From Tricholomella constricta (taxonomy: Eukaryota; Basidiomycota; Agaricomycetes; Agaricales; Lyophyllaceae), in contig JAACJP010000042.1 of NCBI GenBank assembly GCA_013368375.1, positions 333,670-397,669 on the forward strand: 64,000 nucleotides of DNA. Reading direction: 5' to 3'. The notes beneath the pieces were generated by a model. That model did no database searches. It saw only the letters and a program-made list of their open reading frames with translations, and was not told where the DNA came from. The position numbers and the translations under genes are program-made. Position 1 is the first letter of the stretch; each line of letters begins with the position of its first letter. Below, piece after piece: positions 31,121 to 44,635 of the stretch.

Positions 31121-31784
31121 GCCTTACCCTGGAAGACTATCCATGACTTCATCAGCATGACGAATTTGAAGACATGGTGGGTAGTACGAAACAACAGTTA
31201 CCACCCTGGCGAGAAGTCAACTACGAGATAACCCTCTTTGATGACGAGAAACAATATCAGTATCACGCTCCGAGGTGTCCAATGTCATTTCATGAAGAAT
31301 TCTATGCAAAGGTCAAGCGGTGTACAGGCGCTAAATGGTGGGAGCCTCGTTCGGTGAAACAAGCAGCACTGCTGCTATGTATCCTGTAAAAGGATGGGTC
31401 CCTAAGAACACCCTTGGATGCACAGCAATGCAACGACAATACTATAAAGGATGTTACGCCGTTGCCAGACCAGGAAGTCATCCACAAGGATGTCACCAGG
31501 GGAAAAATACGCTCAAAAATTGACTTAACGGATGTGTATAAACAAGTACGCATCCTTGAAAAAGATGTACATAAAATCGCCTTCGCAACGATAGCAGGAA
31601 CATACATCAGTATCATCATGTAGATCGGGGACTGTAATGCCCCCGCATTAATGACGTCCATCTTTTGGGACATCATTGGGAAGTTTATGCATGTATACTT
31701 GGACAATATATTCATATTCTCAAACTCTATTGAAGAACATGAAGACCATTTACAAGTTGTGTTCGAACGATTACGCGAACAATC
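31121..31784 (+). pseudogene. F' : decayed Pol fragment of the F family
   Basis: This matches F Pol from the segment before RT through the RT active site (KQQLPPWREVNYEITL, KWWEPRSVKQA, IRSKIDLTDVYKQVRILEKD). It has a stop after LLCIL (31387), a TAG at about 31621, a small deletion before LMTSIF, and the RT active site YLDD changed to YLDN. Most differences from F are C-to-T or G-to-A. The F hairpins are still visible here but carry mismatches. Confidence 0.9.
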
Positions 31785-31842
31785 TGTAAGGGCGCCTACT
31801 ATCTTATCTACTATCGGTTATCTAATCATATCTTATCGAGAC
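31785..31842 (+). repeat. F' LTR, left part
   Basis: The first 58 bases of an F-type LTR (TGTAAGGGCGCC...ATCGAGAC) directly follow the truncated pol. The LTR continues at 54572 beyond the DIRS element. Confidence 0.85.
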
Positions 31843-32147
31843 AATAAGGCTGACGCAACTCGAGAATTGTATAAGTAGGAGCCGAAAGGAGAAAGGTGAA
31901 GGGGGGGGGATCCGACGCGCACTCAGGGGGGTTCGTGACTTAGGCGGGCGCGGGAAGGATTTTCCACGGTACAAAGGGCGGCGTGTTTACATAAGCGAGG
32001 GAACAACGACAACCCACCTTGAGCGTGGCTCTACGTCGGTGAACGAGCTACGTAAGAGGGCCGATCATAAGACCCCCCAAAGGAGGCATGCGAAGAGGAA
32101 TGAGAATGTGTTAAATTTAGTGAAATAATGAGAGTAAAAGTTAGATG

Positions 32148-33128: not shown

Positions 33129-33133
33129 TTCAA

Positions 33134-33354
33134 TGTAAGGACGCACACTATCTTATCTAATCTTGGTTATCTAATCGTATCTTATCGAGACGATTACGCT
33201 ATTGTTTGGCAACACCTTCTGGTGTTGCCTATTTAATTCATTACATTAATTAAGTATAAACAACCTTGTACACCTATACGTAGCAATCGACAGACTTGTC
33301 AAGCTTACGTCTAGTGTGAACAACAAGGTCCCCAAATTCTGTAACCCCGTTACA
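33134..33354 (+). repeat. 5' LTR of element F
   Basis: 221 bp, TGTAAGGACGC...CGTTACA. It contains a 9-bp hairpin GGCAACACC / GGTGTTGCC (33208-33216 with 33221-33229). No difference from the 3' LTR was seen. Confidence 0.95.
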
Positions 33355-33463
33355 TTTTTTTAAGCTACCTTGCTTTCTATTGCTGCGTACCCACGACGTT
33401 ACGCAGACCCACATTCCATTTAGAACACCCATCATCAAAAAGAACCAACGAGACCGAGACCCG

Positions 33464-36400
33464 ATGACAACAACTCCCACATCCGGAAAGAGCCGAACTC
33501 CGGTCCTCGAGGATGCGCTCACAGCGCATCCTCCATCACAACTTCCACTGCAACCAGTGGAAGTTGGATCAGTCGCTGGTGGACAAAGTTCACCAGCGCA
33601 GAATACACTAGGAGTAGAATCGGAGGAACTTTGGCCAATAGCAAGCACCAATGTGCCTGGGAGCTTGGCCGACGAATTGGCCAGGTCACATCGACCTGGC
33701 CCCACGGCGGGAAGCAGATGGCCAGACAGCCGTCTGTCAAATAGAGCGTTCGGGGCGTCCACCCTGAGCATAATCAAGATGGAGTCGGACGAAGACGACT
33801 TGTCCGACCCCGAGGCTAATGAAGAAGAGGCCAGCGAAAGGGAACTGCTTGCGCTTCAAGTGAAGCAATTCTGGGACACCACCGATGTGGTTAGCGAGCA
33901 TCGGCGAAGGCGACTGGAGGAACGAGCGGATAGGCTCGTTCTGCGATCTACCGGAGCACAATCCGTTGGAGAAATGGTCGCACAAGCATATGCCGACCGA
34001 TACTTGGAAGCGCTGTCCGTAGTAGTTACGGAATACAGGAAGAAGTACCCTAAGGGAACTTCGAATTCAGCAGTCAGCTCGATCGCTGGGACGCCTGTAC
34101 CTAAGAAAGCCTCGTTAAACAAAGGGAAAGGTCGTTGGGATGACCTCTTCACTCCTCAAGCAGTGGCTGCCGGATCGAACCAGCCTCTTGATGAGGCTGC
34201 CATGGCAGTATCGGCGCTGCATCAAGCGCGACAGTTAGGAGAATCTGACGACGATTATCGTCGTCGGTCTGCGGCAGCGAAGCGCGAGAGAATGACTCGT
34301 GAAGAGCATCTTGCGCAACCACAGGGATCCAAATGGGCCCCTGTTAGTGAGTCTACGTTAGACCCACCCACGGAACGTAAGTATACAACCACGCAAGCAG
34401 CTGGCGACGAAAGCGCGCCAGCTATTCAAGTACCTATGGATGCGAAGGATGGCCGTGTTCCATTAGCGAAAGATTGGAACAACCGAGTCGCATATCAGCG
34501 TTTGAGAAACGCTGATTTATCACGGAGCAAGTTCACGAATTATGATGATCAAGGAGTCGTCTTCGAAGGACATATGCCCGTAGATGAGATGGCGAGGCAA
34601 TGGGCCTCGCAAACTCAAGGTTCGGATGGTGGACTGGGAAATGGGGCCGTCGGAAAACATAATACGACGGCGACGGCTAACGGCCGTCAAGACATGCGGG
34701 TTCGTATAAGTGAACCCACTTCACACGCTCAGCCTCGATTTCAAAGTCGAGGCTACTCAATGCCTGACCCGATTCGCAGGAGTCAATCAATTGCGGACGG
34801 AATATATGCTGCTGGAGAGCAGCATAAAACTAAGATGCACGAACGGTTGCATCAACTGATACACGAGCGACTGGCTGTACGCCTATCGCTCCCTGATGGT
34901 ATGAAATCTCGCCGTGCGGACGCAAAGTCCGTAGGAACTTATAGTGGAAGCGCCAAGTTTGGCGAATTGGAAGAATGGCTAGCCAGCCTTGTCGTGATGC
35001 TAGCCGTGAGCCAGTTTGGAGGAGCAGAACGCGACCAAGAGCGCGTTCTGATAACATCTGAGTTCCTTGATGGTGAAGCTCGGAAATGGTACAATCGCCA
35101 TGTTATCCATGTGAACCGCGAAAAGCAGTCCTGGACGTTTGAAGACGTCATACTAGGGCTGTACGATCGGTTCGTGCTGCCTTCAACCATGCAGGATGCT
35201 CGTAACGACTTTAACGCCGTTACCTATTCGGCGAGCAAAGGCATACAAGGTCTGTATGACGACCTTGTGGATCATGCTATGAACATGGCAGCAAGAACGG
35301 ATGATTGGACGTTCCTGGAGAAATTTCTCAAAACACTTCCGCGCGATATGCGGAAGGCATTATTCGATGACGGGCTATCACCCGAAATCAATACAGCCCA
35401 AGAGTTCCTAGCGGTGGGCCTAGCACTTCAAGCCACCCAGAAAACGGCTGATTACTTTGAGCGGACCATAACCGCTCAGCGAAGTCAACCGAGCCAAATG
35501 CGGAAACCAGATGGGGGGCGAGTAAACGCTCCACACAATACTTTCAACAGGCCTCGACGGGTGTATGGCGCAGTAAATGAAAAGCCATATGTCAAGCCAG
35601 CGTATCAGGATCAACCTGGACGTGGAGAGCAAAAGCCCCACGTCGAAAAACCAGCGATGAAGACAGGAGATCGTCCGCGTTACGATCAACCTAAAAACCA
35701 CGATCATCACAACCATCCTCCGGGGGAAGTGTGCTTTAATTGTGGAAAACTAGGGCATTTTGCAAAAGATTGCAAACAGCCCAAGAAACAGCGAGCGTTC
35801 CTACGGGCCGCACGTACAGCGGCACCTGACGCGGCAAGTGAGGCGGACGATGAAGACACGTCTCCTGAGGACCCGGATGGACGAGACAATGGACGCCCTG
35901 ATACAGAGGCGGACAATGAAGACGAAGGCGATGAGTTCGTAGACATGGAGGTCTACGAAAATGAATACTATGCTCGGGACGATGAGACCGAGCGTATGTT
36001 TGCAATGACAGAAGTAATTGCGTCAGAAGAACGCAATGATAAACCACCAGTTCGCAAAGTTAAAGTGCGGACGGGGAGGGACAAAATTGCTCGTCCCGTA
36101 GTTCCGATAAAGGACAAGGAGTGCCTTGTCACCTACATTAACGTAGGTGGACATGAGGCTTGGACCCTTTGGGATTCCGGGAGTACAACTACCGGACTTA
36201 CGCCGTCATTCGCTCAAGTGGCCGATATTCGAGTATTTCCGCTGGAGGATCCATTAATCCTCCAGCTCGGGACTAAAGGAAGTAGGGCCACAGTAAACTT
36301 TGGTACGACGGTGGAAGCCGCTCTGCCAGGGTTTAAAGGCAAGGTTTACATGGACCTTGCTAACTTTGATCGATACGACGTGATTATAGGCACGCCGTTT

Positions 36401-36544
36401 ATGCGCGCAAATAACGTCGTGCTGGACTTTAACCGTGACGAAGTGGTCGTCAATGGAGTCGCTATACCAGCGACTAAGGTAAAAATGGAGGATACCGATG
36501 GCCGAGCTAGACGCCATCGGTCATTGGAGAAACGAAGAGAATGA
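33464..36544 (+). CDS. Element F Gag with C-terminal protease
   Basis: The first ATG is at 33464; the frame is open from 33380 without an ATG. It has 1026 codons ending in TGA (36542-36544). A capsid-type segment (EWLASLVVMLAVSQFGGAER, RKWYNRHVIHVNREKQSWTF) lies near residues 500-560, and a canonical zinc knuckle (CFNCGKLGHFAKDC, CX2CX4HX4C) near residue 757. An acidic spacer and an aspartic protease (LWDSGSTTTG near residue 902, then DVIIGTPFM) follow. The stop is followed by CTA, and the same frame stays open into Pol. Gag is therefore the normal product and readthrough would yield Gag-Pol. The N-terminal third is unlike usual gag. Confidence 0.9.
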   Translation: MTTTPTSGKSRTPVLEDALTAHPPSQLPLQPVEVGSVAGGQSSPAQNTLGVESEELWPIASTNVPGSLADELARSHRPGPTAGSRWPDSRLSNRAFGASTLSIIKMESDEDDLSDPEANEEEASERELLALQVKQFWDTTDVVSEHRRRRLEERADRLVLRSTGAQSVGEMVAQAYADRYLEALSVVVTEYRKKYPKGTSNSAVSSIAGTPVPKKASLNKGKGRWDDLFTPQAVAAGSNQPLDEAAMAVSALHQARQLGESDDDYRRRSAAAKRERMTREEHLAQPQGSKWAPVSESTLDPPTERKYTTTQAAGDESAPAIQVPMDAKDGRVPLAKDWNNRVAYQRLRNADLSRSKFTNYDDQGVVFEGHMPVDEMARQWASQTQGSDGGLGNGAVGKHNTTATANGRQDMRVRISEPTSHAQPRFQSRGYSMPDPIRRSQSIADGIYAAGEQHKTKMHERLHQLIHERLAVRLSLPDGMKSRRADAKSVGTYSGSAKFGELEEWLASLVVMLAVSQFGGAERDQERVLITSEFLDGEARKWYNRHVIHVNREKQSWTFEDVILGLYDRFVLPSTMQDARNDFNAVTYSASKGIQGLYDDLVDHAMNMAARTDDWTFLEKFLKTLPRDMRKALFDDGLSPEINTAQEFLAVGLALQATQKTADYFERTITAQRSQPSQMRKPDGGRVNAPHNTFNRPRRVYGAVNEKPYVKPAYQDQPGRGEQKPHVEKPAMKTGDRPRYDQPKNHDHHNHPPGEVCFNCGKLGHFAKDCKQPKKQRAFLRAARTAAPDAASEADDEDTSPEDPDGRDNGRPDTEADNEDEGDEFVDMEVYENEYYARDDETERMFAMTEVIASEERNDKPPVRKVKVRTGRDKIARPVVPIKDKECLVTYINVGGHEAWTLWDSGSTTTGLTPSFAQVADIRVFPLEDPLILQLGTKGSRATVNFGTTVEAALPGFKGKVYMDLANFDRYDVIIGTPFMRANNVVLDFNRDEVVVNGVAIPATKVKMEDTDGRARRHRSLEKRRE

Positions 36545-36550
36545 CTAAAA
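36542..36550 (+). promoter_or_regulatory. Probable UGA-CUA stop-codon readthrough signal between gag and pol
   Basis: gag ends in TGA followed directly by CTA. The frame then runs 118 codons without a stop to the first pol ATG (36899) and on through pol. UGA CUA is a well-known leaky context. Inverted repeats follow about 45 bases downstream (GTAGGC...GCCTAC). Confidence 0.75.
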
Positions 36551-39500
36551 GTAACAGTAGAAGATGACGATGATCCTGATAATGAGGGTAGGCCGATAAA
36601 CAGCCTACCGAAGGATCATCCAGCACTTTTATTATCCGAGGAAGAGTTTCAAGAAACTCTTAAGGAGGGGGATAAGCCACCTCCGAAGAAGAGAAAACTC
36701 CAACGACGACAGCAGAAGGCACAAAACGAGCCTTCGAACGAACGAGCACAGGTTGACGAGCCATGCGAAGAACATCAGCGCGATAATGAAGCGCGTAAGA
36801 CGAGCGGGGCCGACAAGGATACGGAATCAGAGCCGTATACGAATACGAGTAATCGATCATTTTGGGATAGACCAAATCCACATCCACAATATGAGTGGAT
36901 GTTCGACCCACGGATGCCGCAAGAATGGAACGCAGTAATAGCGTCAATGCGGGCTCACGAAGGAAGAAATGTAGGCACGCGAGGACAAGCGTACCGAAAT
37001 CCACGGCCTGAGGAAGTATCGGAGCCAACGGAAATGAATTTTCCGGTGAATATACAACGGGCTAAACGGCCGTTGTATCGGTTACCAGTGAAGGATGAGA
37101 GTGACTTTGCTCTCGTAAAACTACGAGCTAGGTTTGATGTTAAACCTAGCAATAAAGACACAGCGCACATTCGCGCTGCAAGAATGGTGAACGGAAAAGG
37201 TGAGGCACCCAATGGAGGCCTTACCGCGGAAGATTATCCACGACTTCGCCAGCAATGGCATGACGAATTCGAAGATATGGTGGGTGGTACGAAACAACAG
37301 CTACCACCCTGGCGGGAAGTCAATCACGAGATTACTCTCGTCGATGATGAGAAACAGTACCAGTACCACGCGCCGAGGTGCCCAATGTCCCTTCGCGAGG
37401 AATTCTACGCGAAGGTCAATCGGTATACGGATTCTAAATGGTGGGAGCCTCGTTCGGTGAAGCAAGCAGCGCCGCTGCTATGTATCCCGAAAAAAGACGG
37501 CTCCCTGAGAACACCCTTGGACGCACGCCAGCGTAACGATAACACGATCAAGGACGTGACGCCCTTGCCAGACCAGGAAGTTATTCGCGAAGATGTCGCT
37601 AGGGGAAAAATACGGTCCAAAATTGACTTAACGGATGCGTATGAACAAGTACGCATCCTTGAAAAAGATGTACATAAAACCGCCTTCGCAACGATAGCGG
37701 GAACATACATCAGTAACATCATGCAAATCGGGGACTGTAATGCTCCCGCGACATTTCAACGATTAATGACGTCCATCTTTCGGGACGTCATTGGGAAGTT
37801 CATGCATGTATACTTGGACGATATATTCATATTCTCGAACTCTATTGAGGAACATGAAGACCACTTGCGAGTTGTGTTCGAACGATTACGCGAACAATCA
37901 CTCTACCTTAAATGGAAGAAATGCGAATTGTATTCGGATCGCGTTGATTGCCTTGGTCATATTATTGACGACCAAGGAATTCACCCTGACGCCGACAAAC
38001 TGGCACGGATCCGTGACTGGAGGATACCACGGAATTACAACGATATCCAACGATTCGTTGGACTTGTTAACTATCTGGGACAATTTCTCCCAGATATATC
38101 TGCATACACTGGTCCACTAATGGCGATGACCGAGAATGGGTCGCCATTTTATTGGAGACCAATTCATCAGCGATGCTTTGAAATGATAAAGCATATATGC
38201 TGCACAACGCCAATTATTCGGCCGATTCAACCGAAGACAGGCGAACCAATTTGGATTATCTGTGACGCCTCCAAGTCAGGCGTCGGTGCGATGTATGGAC
38301 AAGGACCTACATGGATCCAAGCCCAGCCGGCTGGATTCATGTCCAAAAAATTCACTAATGCACAGCAGAATTATGCTGTGCATGAACTCGAGACCTTAGC
38401 TATTCTCGAAGCGTTACTTAAGTGGGAGGATAAACTTGTGGGCTATAAAATCCACATCATTACCGACCATAAAGCCCTCGAATTCTTTAAGACCCAGGTG
38501 AATTTATCACCTAGGCAGCGTCGATGGATGGAATACATGTCGCGATTTAACTTCGACATAACCTATGTGAAAGGCGAACTGAACAAAGTCGCCGACTGTC
38601 TATCGCGATACTTCGAGAGCGATAACCATCAAGATCGTTACGACGTCCACGACTTCGTAGCTGCTGATGCTAGAATCGATCCTACTGGTGAAGATCTACC
38701 AGTACCACGATACCATGAAATCGTGGAAAAAGTAGTTGAGATTCGAGCGATGAAAGACGTAGAACTACGTCGAAGCAAGCGTCTTCAAGAACGCCAGGAG
38801 GATCGAGATGTCGAGGCTCAGATAATGGAGGCTGCGGCACCAAGCACCGCATCCGGAACATCGTCACACCCTCAGAAAAGCATGAGTCCAACCGAACGGG
38901 AACGTACGGTCGGAGATATTGTCCTCGGGAGGGACACAGTTTCTCCTCCCCCAGACAAAACGGATGAAAAGATCCGTCACGACGTTATCCTTGGATACCC
39001 AAAGGATAAACTTTTTTCAGTTATTCTCGCTAACCCCATGGACTTTCGTACGTTCACCACGAAAGACAATCTCATTTGGACCACGAACGCTATAAATGAT
39101 AGCGTTCTATGTATACCGCGAGAACCCGAGCTCATCACCACAATTATTGAGCAAGCCCATAAAACTATGGGCCATTTCGGTGCCGAACGGACTACTGAAT
39201 ATATCCGACGATGGTATTGGTGGCCATCACTAGCCACGACCGTGCGTACGTTTTGTAAGACGTGCGAGTACTGCCAGCAGATCAAGACGTCGAATCAAAA
39301 ACCGTCAGGGAAACTACACTCCCTGCCAGTACCAACTAAGCCTTGGGATTCTATCGGAATGGACTTTATCGGTCCATTTCCAGAATCAAAGGGATATAAT
39401 TACCTATGGGTAGTAATTTGTCGTATGACGAGTATGGTGCATATGATACCCATACATACGACGACGACAGCAGCCCAATTATCATGGGTATACTTACGGG

Positions 39501-40444
39501 AGATCGTCAGGCTACATGGCCTGCCAAGCTCGATCGTAAGCGATCGAGACTCTAAGTTTACTTCACGCTGGTGGCGCGAACTACATAAGTTATTAGGAGC
39601 TAAGCTCCTAATGTCGACATCTTTCCATCCTCAGACGGATGGACAAACGGAGCGAGCCAATCGTAGTATTGGCCAGATATTTCGTGCCGTTGTGAGGCAT
39701 GACCAAAAGGATTGGGTAGATTGTATACCCATGGCTGAGTTCGCGATAAATGCGAGCGTATCGGCTACTACCAAGTTCGCTCCATTTGAGCTGAACAGTG
39801 GATACATGCCGTCCATGTTGAAAGAGATACGCTCAGACAGCGTAATACCGAAGGGAATTCGAGAGTATGCGGAACGCGCATTGCAGAATATAGCGGAGGC
39901 GCATGACGCTATAATCGAAGCGCGCGTATTTCAAACGCGCGAGGCAAACAGGCGCCGATCCGCTGGTCCAGAAATAAAGGGGGGAGACTTGGTGTATTTA
40001 TCCACCAAGAACTTGAACCTCCCCAAGGGACGCGCCCGTAAATTGTGCCCGAAATTCGTCGGGCCCTACAAAGTGCTGAAGGCCATGCCAGACACGTCGA
40101 ACTACACGTTGGAATTACCTACGGCACTCATGGAGCGCCGGATACATCCAACATTTCATATATCGATGTTGCGCCCATACTACGCAACGAATGATACAAT
40201 GTTCCCTAATAGAACTCATCCGGAGCCCTACGATTTTGGGGCGCCGGATAATCACGAATGGTTTGTAGAAGACATTTTGGGCCATAGATGGACCCAAAAT
40301 AATACTGTGGAATATCAGGTTAGGTGGAGTCTGGGAGACACCACCTGGGAACCGCACACCAATTGTAACAAGTTAGCGGCACTGGATCGCTACTTGGAAC
40401 TACAAGGGGTGAAGAGCGCGTCGAGATTACCGCGACGAACCTAG
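36545..40444 (+). CDS. Element F Pol: RT, RNase H, integrase, chromodomain
   Basis: In frame with gag after the UGA; the first ATG is at 36899. From there 1181 codons encode RT (CIPKKDGSLRTPLDARQRND, YLDDIFIFSNSIEEHEDH at about residue 305), RNase H (WIICDASKSGVGAM), integrase with an HHCC finger (HKTMGHFG...CKTCEYC) and a D,D35E core (MDFIGPF, SDRDSKF, QTERANRSI), a GPY/F module and a chromodomain (FVEDILGHRWT, VEYQVRWSLGDTTWEPH). The chromodomain places it among the chromoviruses. The 118 codons before the ATG are acidic and Lys/Arg-rich. No lesion was found, and this copy could be active. Confidence 0.95.
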   Translation, partial: LKVTVEDDDDPDNEGRPINSLPKDHPALLLSEEEFQETLKEGDKPPPKKRKLQRRQQKAQNEPSNERAQVDEPCEEHQRDNEARKTSGADKDTESEPYTNTSNRSFWDRPNPHPQYEWMFDPRMPQEWNAVIASMRAHEGRNVGTRGQAYRNPRPEEVSEPTEMNFPVNIQRAKRPLYRLPVKDESDFALVKLRARFDVKPSNKDTAHIRAARMVNGKGEAPNGGLTAEDYPRLRQQWHDEFEDMVGGTKQQLPPWREVNHEITLVDDEKQYQYHAPRCPMSLREEFYAKVNRYTDSKWWEPRSVKQAAPLLCIPKKDGSLRTPLDARQRNDNTIKDVTPLPDQEVIREDVARGKIRSKIDLTDAYEQVRILEKDVHKTAFATIAGTYISNIMQIGDCNAPATFQRLMTSIFRDVIGKFMHVYLDDIFIFSNSIEEHEDHLRVVFERLREQSLYLKWKKCELYSDRVDCLGHIIDDQGIHPDADKLARIRDWRIPRNYNDIQRFVGLVNYLGQFLPDISAYTGPLMAMTENGSPFYWRPIHQRCFEMIKHICCTTPIIRPIQPKTGEPIWIICDASKSGVGAMYGQGPTWIQAQPAGFMSKKFTNAQQNYAVHELETLAILEALLKWEDKLVGYKIHIITDHKALEFFKTQVNLSPRQRRWMEYMSRFNFDITYVKGELNKVADCLSRYFESDNHQDRYDVHDFVAADARIDPTGEDLPVPRYHEIVEKVVEIRAMKDVELRRSKRLQERQEDRDVEAQIMEAAAPSTASGTSSHPQKSMSPTERERTVGDIVLGRDTVSPPPDKTDEKIRHDVILGYPKDKLFSVILANPMDFRTFTTKDNLIWTTNAINDSVLCIPREPELITTIIEQAHKTMGHFGAERTTEYIRRWYWWPSLATTVRTFCKTCEYCQQIKTSNQKPSGKLHSLPVPTKPWDSIGMDFIGPFPESKGYNYLWVVICRMTSMVHMIPIHTTTTAAQLSWVYLREIVRLHGLPSSIVSDRDSKFTSRWWRELHKLLGAKLLMSTSFHPQTDGQTERANRSIGQIFRAVVRHDQKDWVDCIPMAEFAINASVSATTKFAPFELNSGYMPSMLKEIRSDSVIPKGIREYAERALQNIAEAHDAIIEARVFQTREANRRRSAGPEIKGGDLVYLSTKNLNLPKGRARKLCPKFVGPYKVLKAMPDTSNYTLELPTALMERRIHPTFHISMLRPYYATNDTMFPNRTHPEPYDFGAPDNHEWFVEDILGHRWTQNNTVEYQVRWSLGDTTWEPHTNCNKLAALDRYLELQGVKSASRLPRRT

Positions 40445-40572
40445 AATGTGGCGCGGTCATGTGACCACGGCGATCAGGAAAATTACATAACCATCAAAAG
40501 TTATGACAGAAGGTTAAATATGTTTGGCGCTAGACGCGCAACCGATTTTCAACCCTCTCAACACAAACCAAC

Positions 40573-43527
40573 ATGTACCCCAGCCAAGTACCAACCTCCA
40601 GCAACGACGCGATTCGGGGCGGCGACAGCCGCACCGACCAGCAAAATTTGAACCCGGGGCCGAGTTCAAGTGGGGAGGGAGCGCAGGGGCGCGCGGAAAA
40701 TGCGCCCCTGCCCCCAACTTACATGGGCTTGCAGCCCCAATTATATCAATATCCTCCGGTTGGCCATATGAGCCAACCGCCCCATCAGGGGCAACAAACA
40801 TTTCCGACGGTTGGCCATATGAGCCAACCGCACCACCAAGGGCAACAACCACCTATGGGTGGTTTTTACCCGCCAGGGCTGGCATTCCAACAGATGCCAT
40901 CAATGGCGGGTTTCATGGGGTACCCGCAACCGACGTGGTACCCCCAAATGCCCATGCAGCCTGTACCGCACAATACGCGGTACAACGAATCGGAGAAGAT
41001 GGAGGTAGACGACCAAAGTCGTCTGCAAGCAAATGTCCCGCCGGCGCAAGTGGTGCGCGGCGAACCGGTGCGGCAACATGTTGCACCGAATGCAGACGAC
41101 AAAGCGTCGTCGGCGTCGAGTTCGCGGAGGATGGCAGACGATCGTAGAGTATCGCCTGCGTCAAGTTCGAGGAGACCATTCGCAGACGATGGTCTCCTTT
41201 CTTCTCTCTTGGATCGATTGGAAGACGCGGGTATTCACCGCGAATTTTGTGATTTCTTGGACGATGGAATGGCGCAGCTGGTTATAACCCAGCTGCTTGA
41301 TGCATACGATGGAGTTTGCGCGGATTTGAGACGCGTGAAAGCGAGAGAAGCGGCCATGGCTGAGCAACTCAGCCTGGCAAGAAAACGGCCGGCAGTAGCA
41401 TCGCCGGATCGCGGGGAGGGACCATCGTCCCGACCCATAAAAAGGCAGCAAATGGAGGTGCGTCGAGAAGAACGCACCTCATACGAGCCGCGACGACAAG
41501 AGAGGAGCGAGCCCAGGCGTCCGGAACGACGCCTGGAACAGGAGAATCGGCGGTACAACCGCCACCCCGACCAGGAAGTGTGGCGTGACGAACGCCCACT
41601 TGATTATGGTTCTCAACGGGAAGAGCGCCGAGAGGATCAAGGGACGCGCGAAGTGCGCCCCTTACCTGCTCGAGAAATCGAGCGCACGGCGTCGACATCG
41701 TCGACGTCAGCGGAAGCAAAGCCGCAAAACCTATCCGGAGCGTTACCGCCCCCGGGAGAAAGCCGGGTGCGGAACCCAGAACGAGGTTCTCAGAAGAAGG
41801 AACCTGTTGGCAAATATACTTTGCCAGCGCCAGCCCCTGCACCACCTAGTACGATGGTGCAGCCCCCAACGCCGCCCTCCAAAGGCAAACAGAAGGCATC
41901 GGATCCATATGCCGAGGCTATGGATGAATCGGACTGGGGTGAGTCGTCTGACGACGACAAGCCTGTCAGCAAGAAGAAGGCTGCCGGGCAAAAGCAGCAT
42001 CGCGAGAATATGGCTCGCAAAGCTGAGAAGGAGATGCCGGGGCGGATCCCTGACGAGCTCGGGGTGGTCTTCATCAACGACCGCCACGAGAGGGACAACC
42101 GCTTTTGGGATATGCTAGTGCGGACGATATATGTATCGTCCGCCCAGAATCGTGCCTACGCACTAGGCACCGCAGCGCGAGTGTCCGAAAGCGAGTTGGG
42201 GACGGGACACAATTCTCGTCCCCCATCGGGACGGCTATATGCCGTCGCACCACGCGGGTTCCCAATGAACCCTCGTGAAGTTGATCAGTTGTATGCACTG
42301 ATCAACGATCGGCGCCCCGGCGTGACGGATGAAGAGCGGGCAGAGGCCTTTATGCTCTTTAGGGAGTTCCGGCGAGTCTCCCTTTCGGTAGCGCCCCATT
42401 TGCGCGACCGATCCATGGCTCGAGCAGCCATGGATGAATTTAGAAGCGTCAACCGACCGTTCGATACACGGTCACCCATTTGGCAGGCCGCGCCAATTAG
42501 GCGGCCTGGGAGGGCATTCGAATATAGGCCGGACAAGCCTACACGAGGCGCTGGCCTGCCTCAGCCAGGCCCCGACCATGCCCTCGATGTCGAGCACTGG
42601 TGCCGACATATGATTCACCATGGGCGTATTGGTTCAAAGAACCAATACGGAGGAATCGTCATGGACTACCGGTCCCGCGTACATAGGCGCGGAACTTGGG
42701 GATACTTGTTGGCGAATGTACTAGCGCCAACTACCCACAGCATGCGGTCATGGTTCATGCGACTTTTCGCGACCATTACTGCGCGGCCATACCTCTACGC
42801 AGAGGCTGTGGCTGCCTATAACGAGGCCAACCCAGATCGGCCTTTCACACCGATCGAAGGCCCTGAGGTTACCATACCTCGCATCCAAGTGATCCCTCCG
42901 GAGGTGCGGATCACTGAACAAGGTGTCTTGCAACACCTTATCAACATTGGTATTCCAGTAAGCTGGATACACCATAGCTACACTTATGGTCTACATTATT
43001 TGGACCATAACTACTCTAACTCAGGTCCCTATAAGGACCTGTTCCGCAATGTTGACGACGATCGAGTTCGTCGTCTAGATGAAATGGGTGTTCCGCCCGC
43101 CATCCCTGAGTGGGATGGGTGGTACCATCCCACCACCGACGACATCACGCGCATCCAAACACTGATGCACGTGGAATTCCAGACCGAATCACTAGACTGT
43201 CTAGTGAGTTCGGAATGGATGTTTGTGGGTGAAGACCCACACTTCCGAGGACTCCGTGTTCGGGTGGGGGAATATCTCCCCCCAGGCCTGCATCACCCCG
43301 CTTCATCGGGATCGACGTCCATCAACGTCGAAATGGCGGACCCGGCGGCAGCTATACCTGCCCCCGCGACACCCTCCACAGTCGTGGCAGCTCCAACTGG
43401 AGCTACCGAAACCCAAGTGGACCCCGTGTCGGCCCTTACAGGGCCTTTATCACTGGCGGTGATTACCACCAGCCAGGGTCTGGTGGACAACAACACCACC
43501 GACCCCGACACAGTGATGGAGTCATAG
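40573..43527 (+). CDS. Element F third ORF, unrecognised 984-residue protein
   Basis: An intact ORF after pol in a different frame, starting 128 bases after the pol stop. The first 140 residues are rich in Pro, Gln, Met and Gly, with a duplicated PVGHMSQPPHQGQQ-like unit. Residues 205-275 contain a hydrophobic helical segment (DDGLLSSLLDRLEDAGIHRE). A strongly charged Arg/Glu region follows to about residue 400, then SDWGESSDDDKPVSKKKAAG. The last 450 residues look globular (IPDELGVVFINDRHERDNRF, HALDVEHWCRHMIHHGRIGS, YRSRVHRRGTWGYLLANVL). I see no signal peptide or membrane anchor, so an envelope is not supported. A role in particle assembly or RNA handling is possible but speculative. Confidence 0.8.
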   Translation: MYPSQVPTSSNDAIRGGDSRTDQQNLNPGPSSSGEGAQGRAENAPLPPTYMGLQPQLYQYPPVGHMSQPPHQGQQTFPTVGHMSQPHHQGQQPPMGGFYPPGLAFQQMPSMAGFMGYPQPTWYPQMPMQPVPHNTRYNESEKMEVDDQSRLQANVPPAQVVRGEPVRQHVAPNADDKASSASSSRRMADDRRVSPASSSRRPFADDGLLSSLLDRLEDAGIHREFCDFLDDGMAQLVITQLLDAYDGVCADLRRVKAREAAMAEQLSLARKRPAVASPDRGEGPSSRPIKRQQMEVRREERTSYEPRRQERSEPRRPERRLEQENRRYNRHPDQEVWRDERPLDYGSQREERREDQGTREVRPLPAREIERTASTSSTSAEAKPQNLSGALPPPGESRVRNPERGSQKKEPVGKYTLPAPAPAPPSTMVQPPTPPSKGKQKASDPYAEAMDESDWGESSDDDKPVSKKKAAGQKQHRENMARKAEKEMPGRIPDELGVVFINDRHERDNRFWDMLVRTIYVSSAQNRAYALGTAARVSESELGTGHNSRPPSGRLYAVAPRGFPMNPREVDQLYALINDRRPGVTDEERAEAFMLFREFRRVSLSVAPHLRDRSMARAAMDEFRSVNRPFDTRSPIWQAAPIRRPGRAFEYRPDKPTRGAGLPQPGPDHALDVEHWCRHMIHHGRIGSKNQYGGIVMDYRSRVHRRGTWGYLLANVLAPTTHSMRSWFMRLFATITARPYLYAEAVAAYNEANPDRPFTPIEGPEVTIPRIQVIPPEVRITEQGVLQHLINIGIPVSWIHHSYTYGLHYLDHNYSNSGPYKDLFRNVDDDRVRRLDEMGVPPAIPEWDGWYHPTTDDITRIQTLMHVEFQTESLDCLVSSEWMFVGEDPHFRGLRVRVGEYLPPGLHHPASSGSTSINVEMADPAAAIPAPATPSTVVAAPTGATETQVDPVSALTGPLSLAVITTSQGLVDNNTTDPDTVMES

Positions 43528-43883
43528 GTCGGGGAGACAACTTAATCCCCCCGTCAACGAACCGACCTCGACACGTAGGGCGTACCGCCGGGCCGACCGC
43601 CATTGTCAGGTGCAGACCACCTGACTCCCGAGGAGCAATCCGCAGGTTGCGTATTAACGCAACATTGGATGTCCTCACCACCATTCTTTGCCGCACGGCA
43701 CTTTGAGGCCGTGCAGTGGCGCTAATGCATCCACTACTCGTTAAGTCACGAATACGTATTATACCTACGTATTCTTGCATTATTTGATAGGTCTAGGTCG
43801 CCGGGACCTAGACCCTCCTTTTACTTTCTTTTTCTGCCCAACTCCCTGGTGAAGATCGCTACACGCGATCTTAAAGGGGGGTA

Positions 43884-44104
43884 TGTAAGGACGCACACTA
43901 TCTTATCTAATCTTGGTTATCTAATCGTATCTTATCGAGACGATTACGCTATTGTTTGGCAACACCTTCTGGTGTTGCCTATTTAATTCATTACATTAAT
44001 TAAGTATAAACAACCTTGTACACCTATACGTAGCAATCGACAGACTTGTCAAGCTTACGTCTAGTGTGAACAACAAGGTCCCCAAATTCTGTAACCCCGT
44101 TACA
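43884..44104 (+). repeat. 3' LTR of element F
   Basis: 221 bp, preceded by the polypurine tract at about 43871-43883 and followed by TTCAA. Confidence 0.95.
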
Positions 44105-44635
44105 TTCAAGAAGACGTTGGAAAATCTGGGACTGGAAAGAATGAGAGAAGTGAAAAAGGAAGAGAGAAGGAGGTACTTGATTTTCGAGAGGTAATTGAGT
44201 ATTGAGAATAGATTGAGCGTATAAGGAGTGGGGCGTAGTCCATAGGAGAAGTCGTTGACCTGCCGGTACAACGGGTCGATAAGGGCTAGGCGCATATGCG
44301 TTAGAAATGCGAGGATTGCGAGTTTTGTGAGAGGGTAAGGAGCCAGCGGCGATGCTACGTGGGTTTGGATTGGCAAGATAGACACCCGGCGCTACGGTGT
44401 GGGAAGTGGTGCGAGCTGGCGTTGCAGAGTCTTCGAGGGAAGGTGAATGTCGAGAGGAGGAGTGAGTCAAAGGAGCAGAGGGAATGACGAAGACCCCAGG
44501 AGCAATGGTCAAGGAAGTAGTACGGGCAGGCGTGCTTGCGATTTCGAAGACAGGAGTGCGTGGAAGGATCTCTTGAGGAGGTCCTACTCCGTCTACGAAG
44601 GCCTCGCAAGAGACCGAGCGGGAAATGTCAGACAT
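44105..44635 (-). CDS. DIRS tyrosine recombinase, N-terminal part
   Basis: Starts at ATG 44635, overlapping the RNase H stop codon in the sequence ATGTCTGA, which suggests termination-reinitiation. The 177 codons are rich in Ser, Pro and Thr and end SFQSQIFQRLLE at the F insertion point. The same frame continues at 33128 with SLTEST. No domain is recognisable in this N-terminal part. Confidence 0.8.

Follow-up and report, generated by a model that had tools for sequence, protein, structure and literature searches.

The LTR retrotransposon F, at 33133-44106 of the window (the whole stretch of 64,000 nucleotides analyzed here), is filled with short perfect hairpins that very probably, judging from comparisons among its copies, reflect selected self-folding. 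We read F as a probable case of genome-scale ordered structure (GORS) in a retrotransposon, with a lineage under whole-sequence selection for local self-folding.

Structure of element F

F is a recently inserted Ty3/gypsy-type element with LTRs that are 100% identical, a target-site duplication (TSD) of TTCAA, and pol domains in the order RT - RNase H - integrase (PF00078, PF17917, PF17921, PF00665). Its features, and a decayed relative in the same window, are as follows.

31121..31851, + strand: decayed F-related relic that joins part of pol to part of an LTR (85% at the nucleotide level, 3 stops)
33129..33133, no strand: left TSD copy, TTCAA (read directly; same as 44105-44109)
33134..33354, + strand: 5' LTR, 221 bp, TGTAAGG...CGTTACA (100% identity with the 3' LTR)
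33172..43979, no strand: hairpin array, 108 perfect stems (7 bp or longer), 104 of them with loops of 3-12 (each stem listed)
33380..36544, + strand: gag frame with zinc knuckle zf-CCHC, PF00098 (ORF and Pfam)
36542..36544, + strand: lone in-frame TGA separating gag from pol, followed by CTA (read from sequence)
36899..40444, + strand: pol, with RT, RNase H, integrase and a Tf2-1-like SH3 (ORF and Pfam)
40573..43527, + strand: ORF3, 984 aa (ORF)
43528..43872, + strand: 3' untranslated stretch (hairpins counted over 43528-43882)
43873..43881, + strand: polypurine tract AAAGGGGGG, upstream of the 3' LTR (read from sequence)
43884..44104, + strand: 3' LTR (100% identity with the 5' LTR)
44105..44109, no strand: right TSD copy, TTCAA (read from sequence)

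The 5' LTR includes a TATAAA (33255-33260, read from sequence) and two hairpins (33172-33196 and 33208-33229). The gag start codon was called mechanically, and the pol frame is open already from 36545. The TGA-CTA between them, which from its motif we take to be a readthrough-type context, is present as TGACTA in 28 of 30 F/S2 loci (S2 being a subfamily of F, described below). A chromodomain match (PF00385) scored 19.5 bits, under the cut-off of 25.1. ORF3 matched no Pfam family, and its homologues among the matches listed number three, every one from Lyophyllum. F thus resembles basidiomycete Ty3/gypsy (chromovirus-like) elements in its LTRs, TSD, zinc-knuckle gag, RT-RNase H-integrase order and Tf2-1-like SH3, but differs from them in the extra ORF3, in its hairpin saturation, and in having gag and pol as a single frame split by a TGA.

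Hairpins in F and in controls

Perfect stems of at least 7, 8, 9 and 10 bp (loops of 3-20) number 108, 58, 30 and 13 in F, against means of 8.8, 2.1, 0.45 and 0.08 and maxima of 15, 7, 3 and 2 in 60 dinucleotide shuffles. The original prediction, that hairpins fill F end to end beyond random expectation, is thus borne out, and all 13 of the arm pairs that it cited are perfect. Its view that protein coding is not the explanation also agrees with the counts of stems of at least 7 bp in codon shuffles (60 per frame, protein and codon usage preserved), which none of the frames resembles: gag has 32 stems (3.3 in shuffles), pol 27 (3.8) and ORF3 35 (4.5), a 7- to 10-fold excess. The 3' stretch (43528-43882) has 6, against 0.2 in dinucleotide shuffles. 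Hairpin density begins and ends at the LTRs, with 11.3 per kb in element DNA vs. 0.78 in flanking DNA (30 LTR loci, including the two in the window). The pattern had been described as not seen in A, E or the DIRS element, which holds for A and E, whose five frames contain 1, 2, 0, 3 and 2 stems where 1.0-2.6 are expected; outside F, the 53 kb of the window contain 74 stems vs. 48 (10 shuffles).

Neither a wider class of repeats nor a known RNA family accounts for the hairpins. For 8-bp direct, mirror and complement repeats F shows no excess, and the one match to known RNA families scored 21.8 bits against a gathering score of 50; both candidates were rejected.

Geometry and folding energy

With loops of up to 12, stems of at least 6 bp are spaced on average by 63 nt and those of at least 7 bp by 105 nt, wider than the 30-60 bases originally proposed. 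Regular spacing was rejected, as gap variation (0.68-0.71) is, by our estimate, about that given by non-overlap alone. Within the loops of 3-60 examined, the excess lies at 3-12; stems of at least 6 bp with loops of 13-60 number 91 in the coding parts vs. ~85, although 8-bp stems taken alone number 13 vs. 4. Long-range pairing was rejected as the main feature of F. At 12 the limit is abrupt in F and more gradual in S2, and the sister families L061 and L062 show none. Enrichment extends to loops of 1 nt (5 vs. 0.7) and 2 nt (2 vs. 0.6), so that a lower loop limit was dropped as an argument for folding. The loops of F are A+T-rich (0.59 vs. 0.49), and third-third codon register is rarer than expected (39/152 vs. 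37.5%, p = 0.0025), an effect clear in F only and lacking in L062. The two strands of F are alike (z -3.42 on plus, -3.25 on minus, paired p = 0.45; second run, -3.66 and -3.04). Among 22-mers, the proportion with a folding energy of -4 kcal/mol or better rises from 16-18% to 25-27%; at ~1.5-fold this is modest for a small-RNA shield, and self-folding small RNAs were rejected.

Excess folding energy over order-shuffled controls (MFED) averages 26.3% in F (range 2.3-48.7, 60 windows), 22.8% in S2, 23.1% in L061 and 22.7% in L062, vs. -2.1% in A and -1.2% in E. Other parts of the window give 2.8% (1-10 kb), 4.5% (52-57 kb) and -1.9% (57-62 kb).

Relatives of F

S2 is 8% diverged from F and has the hairpin excess, with 57 stems to 57 in F over the same 6.5 kb. 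L061 and L062, known from one locus each, also have it (20 stems vs. 2.9 expected and 10 vs. 2.5, respectively). Neither this sharing of the trait nor the likeness of the two strands and the cut-off at loops of 12 in F was part of the original prediction. Hairpin centres coincide between families in only 0-3 cases; S2 and L061 have 3 in common, where 500 shifts gave at most 2, and some positions may therefore be kept between them. The relic at 31121..31851 lacks perfect stems of 7 bp or more (the matching stretch of F has 4) and retains some excess folding energy, ~1.5 standard deviations on one strand and ~2.4 on the other. A search for DNA of F relatives in viral contigs and in bacterial and archaeal genome contigs gave no usable relative, and one in plasmids only matches of 25-31%. 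Related elements are known from Lyophyllum atratum and L. shimeji, and further relatives have pol identities of 74-51%.

Fixed differences and recent variants

F and S2 differ at 4.6% of stem sites (61 changes) and at 8.9% of sites outside stems (401 changes), so that, as regards the arms, comparison of copies indicates conservation, with stem sites differing half as often. The avoidance extends to 4-fold sites (24/250 changed in stems vs. 131/639 elsewhere, p = 8e-5). Singletons avoid stems barely (9.1% vs. 10.6%), and the contrast between singletons and fixed differences has p = 0.0039 among 26 copies and weakens to p = 0.037 (Fisher) in a smaller clean set with outlier copies dropped. Between F and S2 there are 60 hairpin losses vs. 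105±9 expected and 32 gains vs. 20±3.6; scattering the same 520 changes randomly leaves 24.7 stems of at least 7 bp (maximum 36 in 100 runs), vs. 51 in the actual S2 and 56 in F. Because fixed differences avoid stems twofold, at 4-fold sites too, while recent singletons decay stems almost neutrally, selection on folding is favored over a hairpin-generating copying process. Compensatory changes in the arms, which the original prediction proposed to look for, are present but few (4/669 pairs perfect in F, 3/620 pairs perfect in S2). Neighbouring singletons form 14 pairs; a singleton cluster in locus L039 is absent from the global alignment and was taken as an alignment artefact.

Alternative explanations

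That base composition, codon usage or ordinary protein coding gave rise to the hairpins incidentally has a negligible probability: all that speaks for it is the small excess elsewhere in the window, but codon and dinucleotide shuffles contain 7- to 12-fold fewer stems, refuting chance, codon usage and composition as the source, and the hairpins are absent from A and E. A replication-linked process, in which the element's RT, through snap-back or quasipalindrome template switching, writes and corrects short perfect inverted repeats with no need of a function, deserves more attention. Quasipalindrome template-switch products are strand-symmetric. Such switching, in the part of PMC7202029 drawn on here, yields short perfect inverted repeats, and F is like it in both respects. 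The perfect Watson-Crick arms, the lack of G.U tolerance and the loop limit near 12 are likewise expected from templated copying, the enriched loops of 1-2 nt show no lower limit favoring folding, and the trait tracks the element rather than the genome. At equilibrium, however, copying needs gains to equal losses, and the 277 recent singletons make 14 hairpins (11.3 expected) and break 53 (65 expected), so that recent variants break hairpins oftener than they make them; the 100 singletons remaining when C>T/G>A changes are excluded are ambiguous, leaning weakly its way (7 gains and 16 losses vs. 4.3 and 22.2 expected). Stems perfect in only one subfamily mostly differ by one point change (14/24 of those perfect in F, 13/18 of those perfect in S2), with 4-5 changes, on both arms, in 3/18 of the latter. 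Stem residues of F match the conserved pol residue in 64/65 columns (elsewhere 414/433), and the third-third register depletion and A+T-rich loops also speak against copying. The replication process raised in the original prediction is thus disfavored, and we consider it quite unlikely.

Selection may instead act on single-stranded DNA (the cDNA intermediate), or on both strands alike, rather than on sense RNA, for example through cDNA compaction, less strand annealing or steered reverse transcription. Plain sense-RNA selection does not predict the strand symmetry of F or its single-side changes of stem pairs (G.U 30 : A.C 34, i.e., no G.U tolerance). The minus/plus MFED ratios of F (0.89) and S2 (0.92) are near that of a simulation with DNA energies (0.87) and far from simulated sense-RNA selection (0.59), and their G.T:A.C counts of 2:6 and 5:4 compare with 3:2 and 12:1 (G.U:A.C), respectively, in these simulations. 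A local-only RNA simulation, however, comes nearer to F (0.80), though with G.T 14 : A.C 3; MFED is slightly higher on the plus strand of F than on the minus strand (26.3 vs. 22.7); and the DNA-energy simulations also fail to reproduce the loop cliff of F (p = 0.012 and 1e-5). L061 has G.T 6 : A.C 2, and L062 (ratio 0.61, G.T 3 : A.C 0) is like sense-RNA selection and looks like ordinary RNA structure. A target confined to DNA, or indifferent to strand, is in our view rather unlikely.

Comparison with known systems

Genome-scale ordered structure is known from some plus-strand RNA viruses. F shares with these an element-wide excess of folding energy over order-shuffled controls, built up from numerous short local stem-loops both within and outside coding regions, and, as in the viruses, the property is common to relatives while positions turn over (F, S2, L061 and L062 all have 22.7-26.3% MFED with differing pairings). 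Non-singleton variability is reduced at paired sites. The same holds in SARS-CoV-2, where single-copy variants ignore pairing and recurrent variants avoid paired sites (PMC7642675, in the part drawn on here), much as singletons nearly ignore the stems of F and fixed changes avoid them. The mean MFED of F (26%) exceeds the 15% of SARS-CoV-2 and the 23.4% of the highest vertebrate RNA virus named in that part of PMC7642675, by a procedure that is similar, not identical. Unlike the viruses, F is an LTR retrotransposon, and it has perfect stems that are alike on both strands, do not tolerate G.U and have loops of no more than 12; the signs of plus-strand folding, strand asymmetry and tolerated G.U, are present in L062 but not in F or S2. 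The SHAPE-mapped yeast Ty1 and Ty3 are also LTR retrotransposons whose RNAs have stable, highly structured regions across the genome (up to 30% of the RNA, as given in the part of PMC11381356 drawn on here), a likeness that involves no comparison of sequences; the terms covariation and z-score are both absent from the main text of that paper. In the open-licence literature (titles and abstract beginnings), no description of a hairpin-saturated retrotransposon was found.

Proposed mechanism and implications

Selection on the folding of F would work mainly via synonymous choices, in the copies that replicate, and its target would be the folded state rather than particular hairpins. In what seems the most likely mechanism, the hairpins would hold single-stranded forms of the element (its genomic RNA and, for F, probably cDNA or antisense RNA as well) in compact local helices. 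Such helices would not readily anneal to complementary strands, which may shield them from host RNA silencing, and could help compaction inside the particle. Shielding against annealing or silencing is a tentative, somewhat doubtful candidate for the main benefit, and packaging or compaction an unlikely one; of the functional suggestions in the original prediction, a selected structural role is supported, of which stability, packaging and silencing escape would be candidate forms. A more speculative and fairly improbable reading is an undescribed kind of self-folding genome, with perfect Watson-Crick hairpins on both strands, loops of at most 12 and a hard stop at 13, selected at every single-stranded stage (RNA, cDNA, antisense or small RNAs). 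In that case the loop limit would be the ruler of a host sensor or an element protein, and the path would have led from sense-RNA structure (as in L062) to a both-strand hairpin code (as in F).

With selected self-folding in F, genome-scale ordered structure would reach beyond RNA viruses to LTR retrotransposons, whose genome exists as inserted DNA too. As dead copies serve as a built-in neutral control, the old problem of why certain RNA genomes are folded throughout could be tested in a system free of infection and immunity. Both the likeness of the strands and the upper bound on loop length are sharp and falsifiable hints at the sensor of the structure. Synonymous sites of transposons may be strongly constrained, which would bias substitution-based dating.

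Element F and its family

The features considered here are listed by window position.

31121-31851, F-related relic in which a pol piece runs directly into the first 67 LTR bases
33134-44104, F, a Ty3/gypsy-type LTR retrotransposon
40573-43527, ORF3 of F, 984 aa, no Pfam family

The two 221-bp LTRs of F (TGTAAGG...CGTTACA) are identical and a 5-bp target duplication, TTCAA, lies on either side, indicating a recent insertion. F encodes a gag with a zinc knuckle and a Ty3/gypsy-type pol (RT, RNase H, integrase, Tf2-1-like SH3), in which a chromodomain match scores below the cut-off. Gag and pol occupy one frame, interrupted only by a TGA with CTA directly after it (36542-36547), a context that favours stop-codon readthrough; TGACTA is present in 28 of 30 loci of F and its ~8%-diverged subfamily S2, and the other two loci are out of register in the alignment. 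The bases directly 3' of the 5' LTR (33355-33372, TTTTTTTAAGCTACCTTG) contain no primer binding site of the TGG type. ORF3 has an Arg-rich middle and a conserved C-terminal half, with three homologues, from Lyophyllum atratum and L. shimeji, among the best word-sharing candidates scored, which suggests that the host is probably a mushroom related to these.

The family is large. In 44 Mb of genome (118 contigs) there are at least 40 LTR places (40 scored of 211 candidates) and at least 39 pol places (39 scored of 1212, which include other families), both counts being lower bounds. Apart from the relic, other pol matches in the window are only distant (23-33% aa identity to F).

Hairpin saturation of F

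F carries 108 perfect stems of ≥7 bp with loops of 3-20 nt, compared with 8.8 in dinucleotide shuffles, in agreement with the original prediction, made from sequence alone, of hairpins far beyond chance; all 13 hairpins cited there are perfect. The same prediction held that protein coding alone is no explanation, and codon shuffles, which preserve protein and codon usage, bear this out, as gag (32 vs. 3.3 stems), pol (27 vs. 3.8) and ORF3 (35 vs. 4.5) are all far above shuffled. The excess starts and stops with the element: density (loops 3-12) is 9.5 per kb inside F and 0.83 per kb elsewhere in the window, and 30 LTR loci have 11.3 hairpins per kb in element DNA vs. 0.78 in flanks. Direct, mirror and complement repeats show no excess in F (1, 0 and 4; expected 3.6, 3.1 and 3.1).

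The excess in coding parts of F sits at stems of ≥6 bp with loops of 3-12 nt; for loops of 13-60 nt there are 91 stems vs. about 85, although counting 8-bp stems by themselves gives 13 vs. 4. Across F, stems of ≥6 bp number 12-21 per length for loops of 4 to 12 nt and 1 at loop 13 (~2 by chance), and loops of 1, 2 and 3 nt are also enriched (5, 2 and 7 vs. 0.7, 0.6 and 1.8). S2 has a gentler cliff, and two sister families, L061 and L062, have none.

Folding energy differences relative to order-shuffled controls (MFED), averaged over 350-nt windows, are 22.8% in S2, 23.1% in L061 and 22.7% in L062. Mean MFED is -2.1% and -1.2% in elements A and E, which were correctly predicted to lack the pattern, and 4.5%, -1.9% and 2.8% at 52-57, 57-62 and 1-10 kb. 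F itself averages 26.3%, compared with 15% for SARS-CoV-2 in PMC7642675, whose procedure is close, not identical, to ours; the same paper puts hepatitis C virus at 7-9% and the highest-scoring vertebrate RNA virus at 23.4%.

Conservation among relatives

The hairpin property persists across families, its places mostly changing. S2 (L059, L060) is 92% identical to F (nt) across 6.5 kb, over which each has 57 hairpins and 40 centres are shared. Each sister family was read at one locus, and hairpins number 20 in L061 (pol 60% aa; 2.9 expected) and 10 in L062 (76% aa; 2.5 expected). Coinciding centres between families number 0-3 (0.1-0.4 expected); S2 and L061 share 3, compared with a maximum of 2 in 500 random shifts, and a few positions may therefore be conserved.

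L062 (G000:C22:446093-449296) has equally strong sense-strand folding energy, yet longer loops, G.U pairs and a sense-strand bias, a different style of structure within the same lineage. L053 (G000:C57:36563-43105; 91% nt identity overall) combines an F-like pol (99% aa) with an S2-like ORF3 (84% aa) and is likely a recombinant between subfamilies.

Selection or mutation

Between F and S2, fixed differences number 61 in stems (4.6% of sites) and 401 outside them (8.9%); at 4-fold sites the corresponding figures are 24/250 and 131/639 (p = 8e-5). Singletons, variants in one copy only, hardly avoid stems (9.1% vs. 10.6% elsewhere in 26 copies, with outliers L040, L045 and L058 contributing many and L053 excluded throughout; 2.7% vs. 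3.2% in 23 copies, with outliers and S2-like variants dropped). The singleton/fixed contrast gives p = 0.0039 with 26 copies and p = 0.037 with 23. With the 520 F-S2 changes reassigned at random, 24.7 stems remain (≤36 in 100 runs), compared with 51 in S2. Singletons in F copies L032-L057 (23 used) are chiefly C>T and G>A (133/192), which suggests cytosine deamination of inserted copies.

Hairpins could also arise by a copying process without selection for folding, and the original prediction had raised a replication process making inverted repeats. This idea is weakened by recent singletons, of which (n = 277) 53 destroy and 14 create hairpin pairs (expected 65 and 11.3), while the 100 other than C>T or G>A (7 gains, 16 losses vs. 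4.3, 22.2) show a shift possible under either model. The 520 F-S2 differences create 32 and destroy 60 pairs, where 20 and 105 are expected; all these expectations use random sites of the same base with neighbouring bases unmatched, and overlapping loci of one physical copy may have turned some singletons into shared variants. The relic (85% nt to F, three stops) has no 7-bp stem where F's matching stretch has four, a comparison that assumes its ancestor carried F's hairpins. Its folding nevertheless still exceeds that of codon shuffles, by about 1.5 and 2.4 standard deviations on the two strands. Stems with third positions opposed are under-represented in F (39/152, p = 0.0025), as would follow if the stems are built from synonymous sites; random sequences selected for folding energy have a similar share (110/382), and S2, L061 and L062 show little or no depletion. 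Pol residues match the conserved residue in 64/65 stem columns and 414/433 others. Together, the F-S2, singleton, reshuffling, relic, register and pol-residue data favour selection for folding in replicating copies, followed by decay after insertion.

Strand dependence

F folds alike on both strands (z = -3.42 and -3.25, paired p = 0.45; second run, -3.66 and -3.04), departing from the known plus-strand pattern. Where F and S2 differ in just one member of a stem pair, the altered pair on the sense strand is G.U in 30 cases and A.C in 34.

Table. Strand indicators in elements and in simulated selection for folding (60-120 short random sequences, one selection strength each; a guide, not a fit).
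Set; G.T:A.C; minus/plus MFED
F; 2:6; 0.89
S2; 5:4; 0.92
L061; 6:2; 0.95
L062; 3:0; 0.61
Sense-RNA selection; 12:1; 0.59
DNA-energy selection; 3:2; 0.87
Local-only RNA; 14:3; 0.80
Local-only DNA; 3:4; 0.86

Set against these simulations, both indicators make L062 look like ordinary sense-RNA structure, and those of F and S2 give the impression that both strands matter, or else single-stranded DNA. Perfect hairpins are denser in F (8.2 per kb) than in every simulation (≤4.7), and its loop limit is sharper.

Possible benefit

None of the papers listed in searches of open-access PMC reports such hairpin saturation in a retrotransposon. F behaves like the genome-scale ordered RNA structure (GORS) of some plus-strand RNA viruses; since F, when tested, did not show the plus-strand pattern, we stop short of classing it as GORS in full. 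PMC3950689 discusses structure-dependent escape from RNA interference, with evidence that is not entirely consistent. Packaging or compaction is the main competing candidate. The proportion of 22-mers folding at -4 kcal/mol is 25-27% in F vs. 16-18%, a modest effect that disfavours a shield acting through the small RNA itself; shielding of the target by hairpins is possible. Of the candidate benefits, the likeliest is a proposed shield from annealing and silencing, in which local self-pairing would stop F's single strands from pairing with complementary strands, and with silencing small RNAs in particular.
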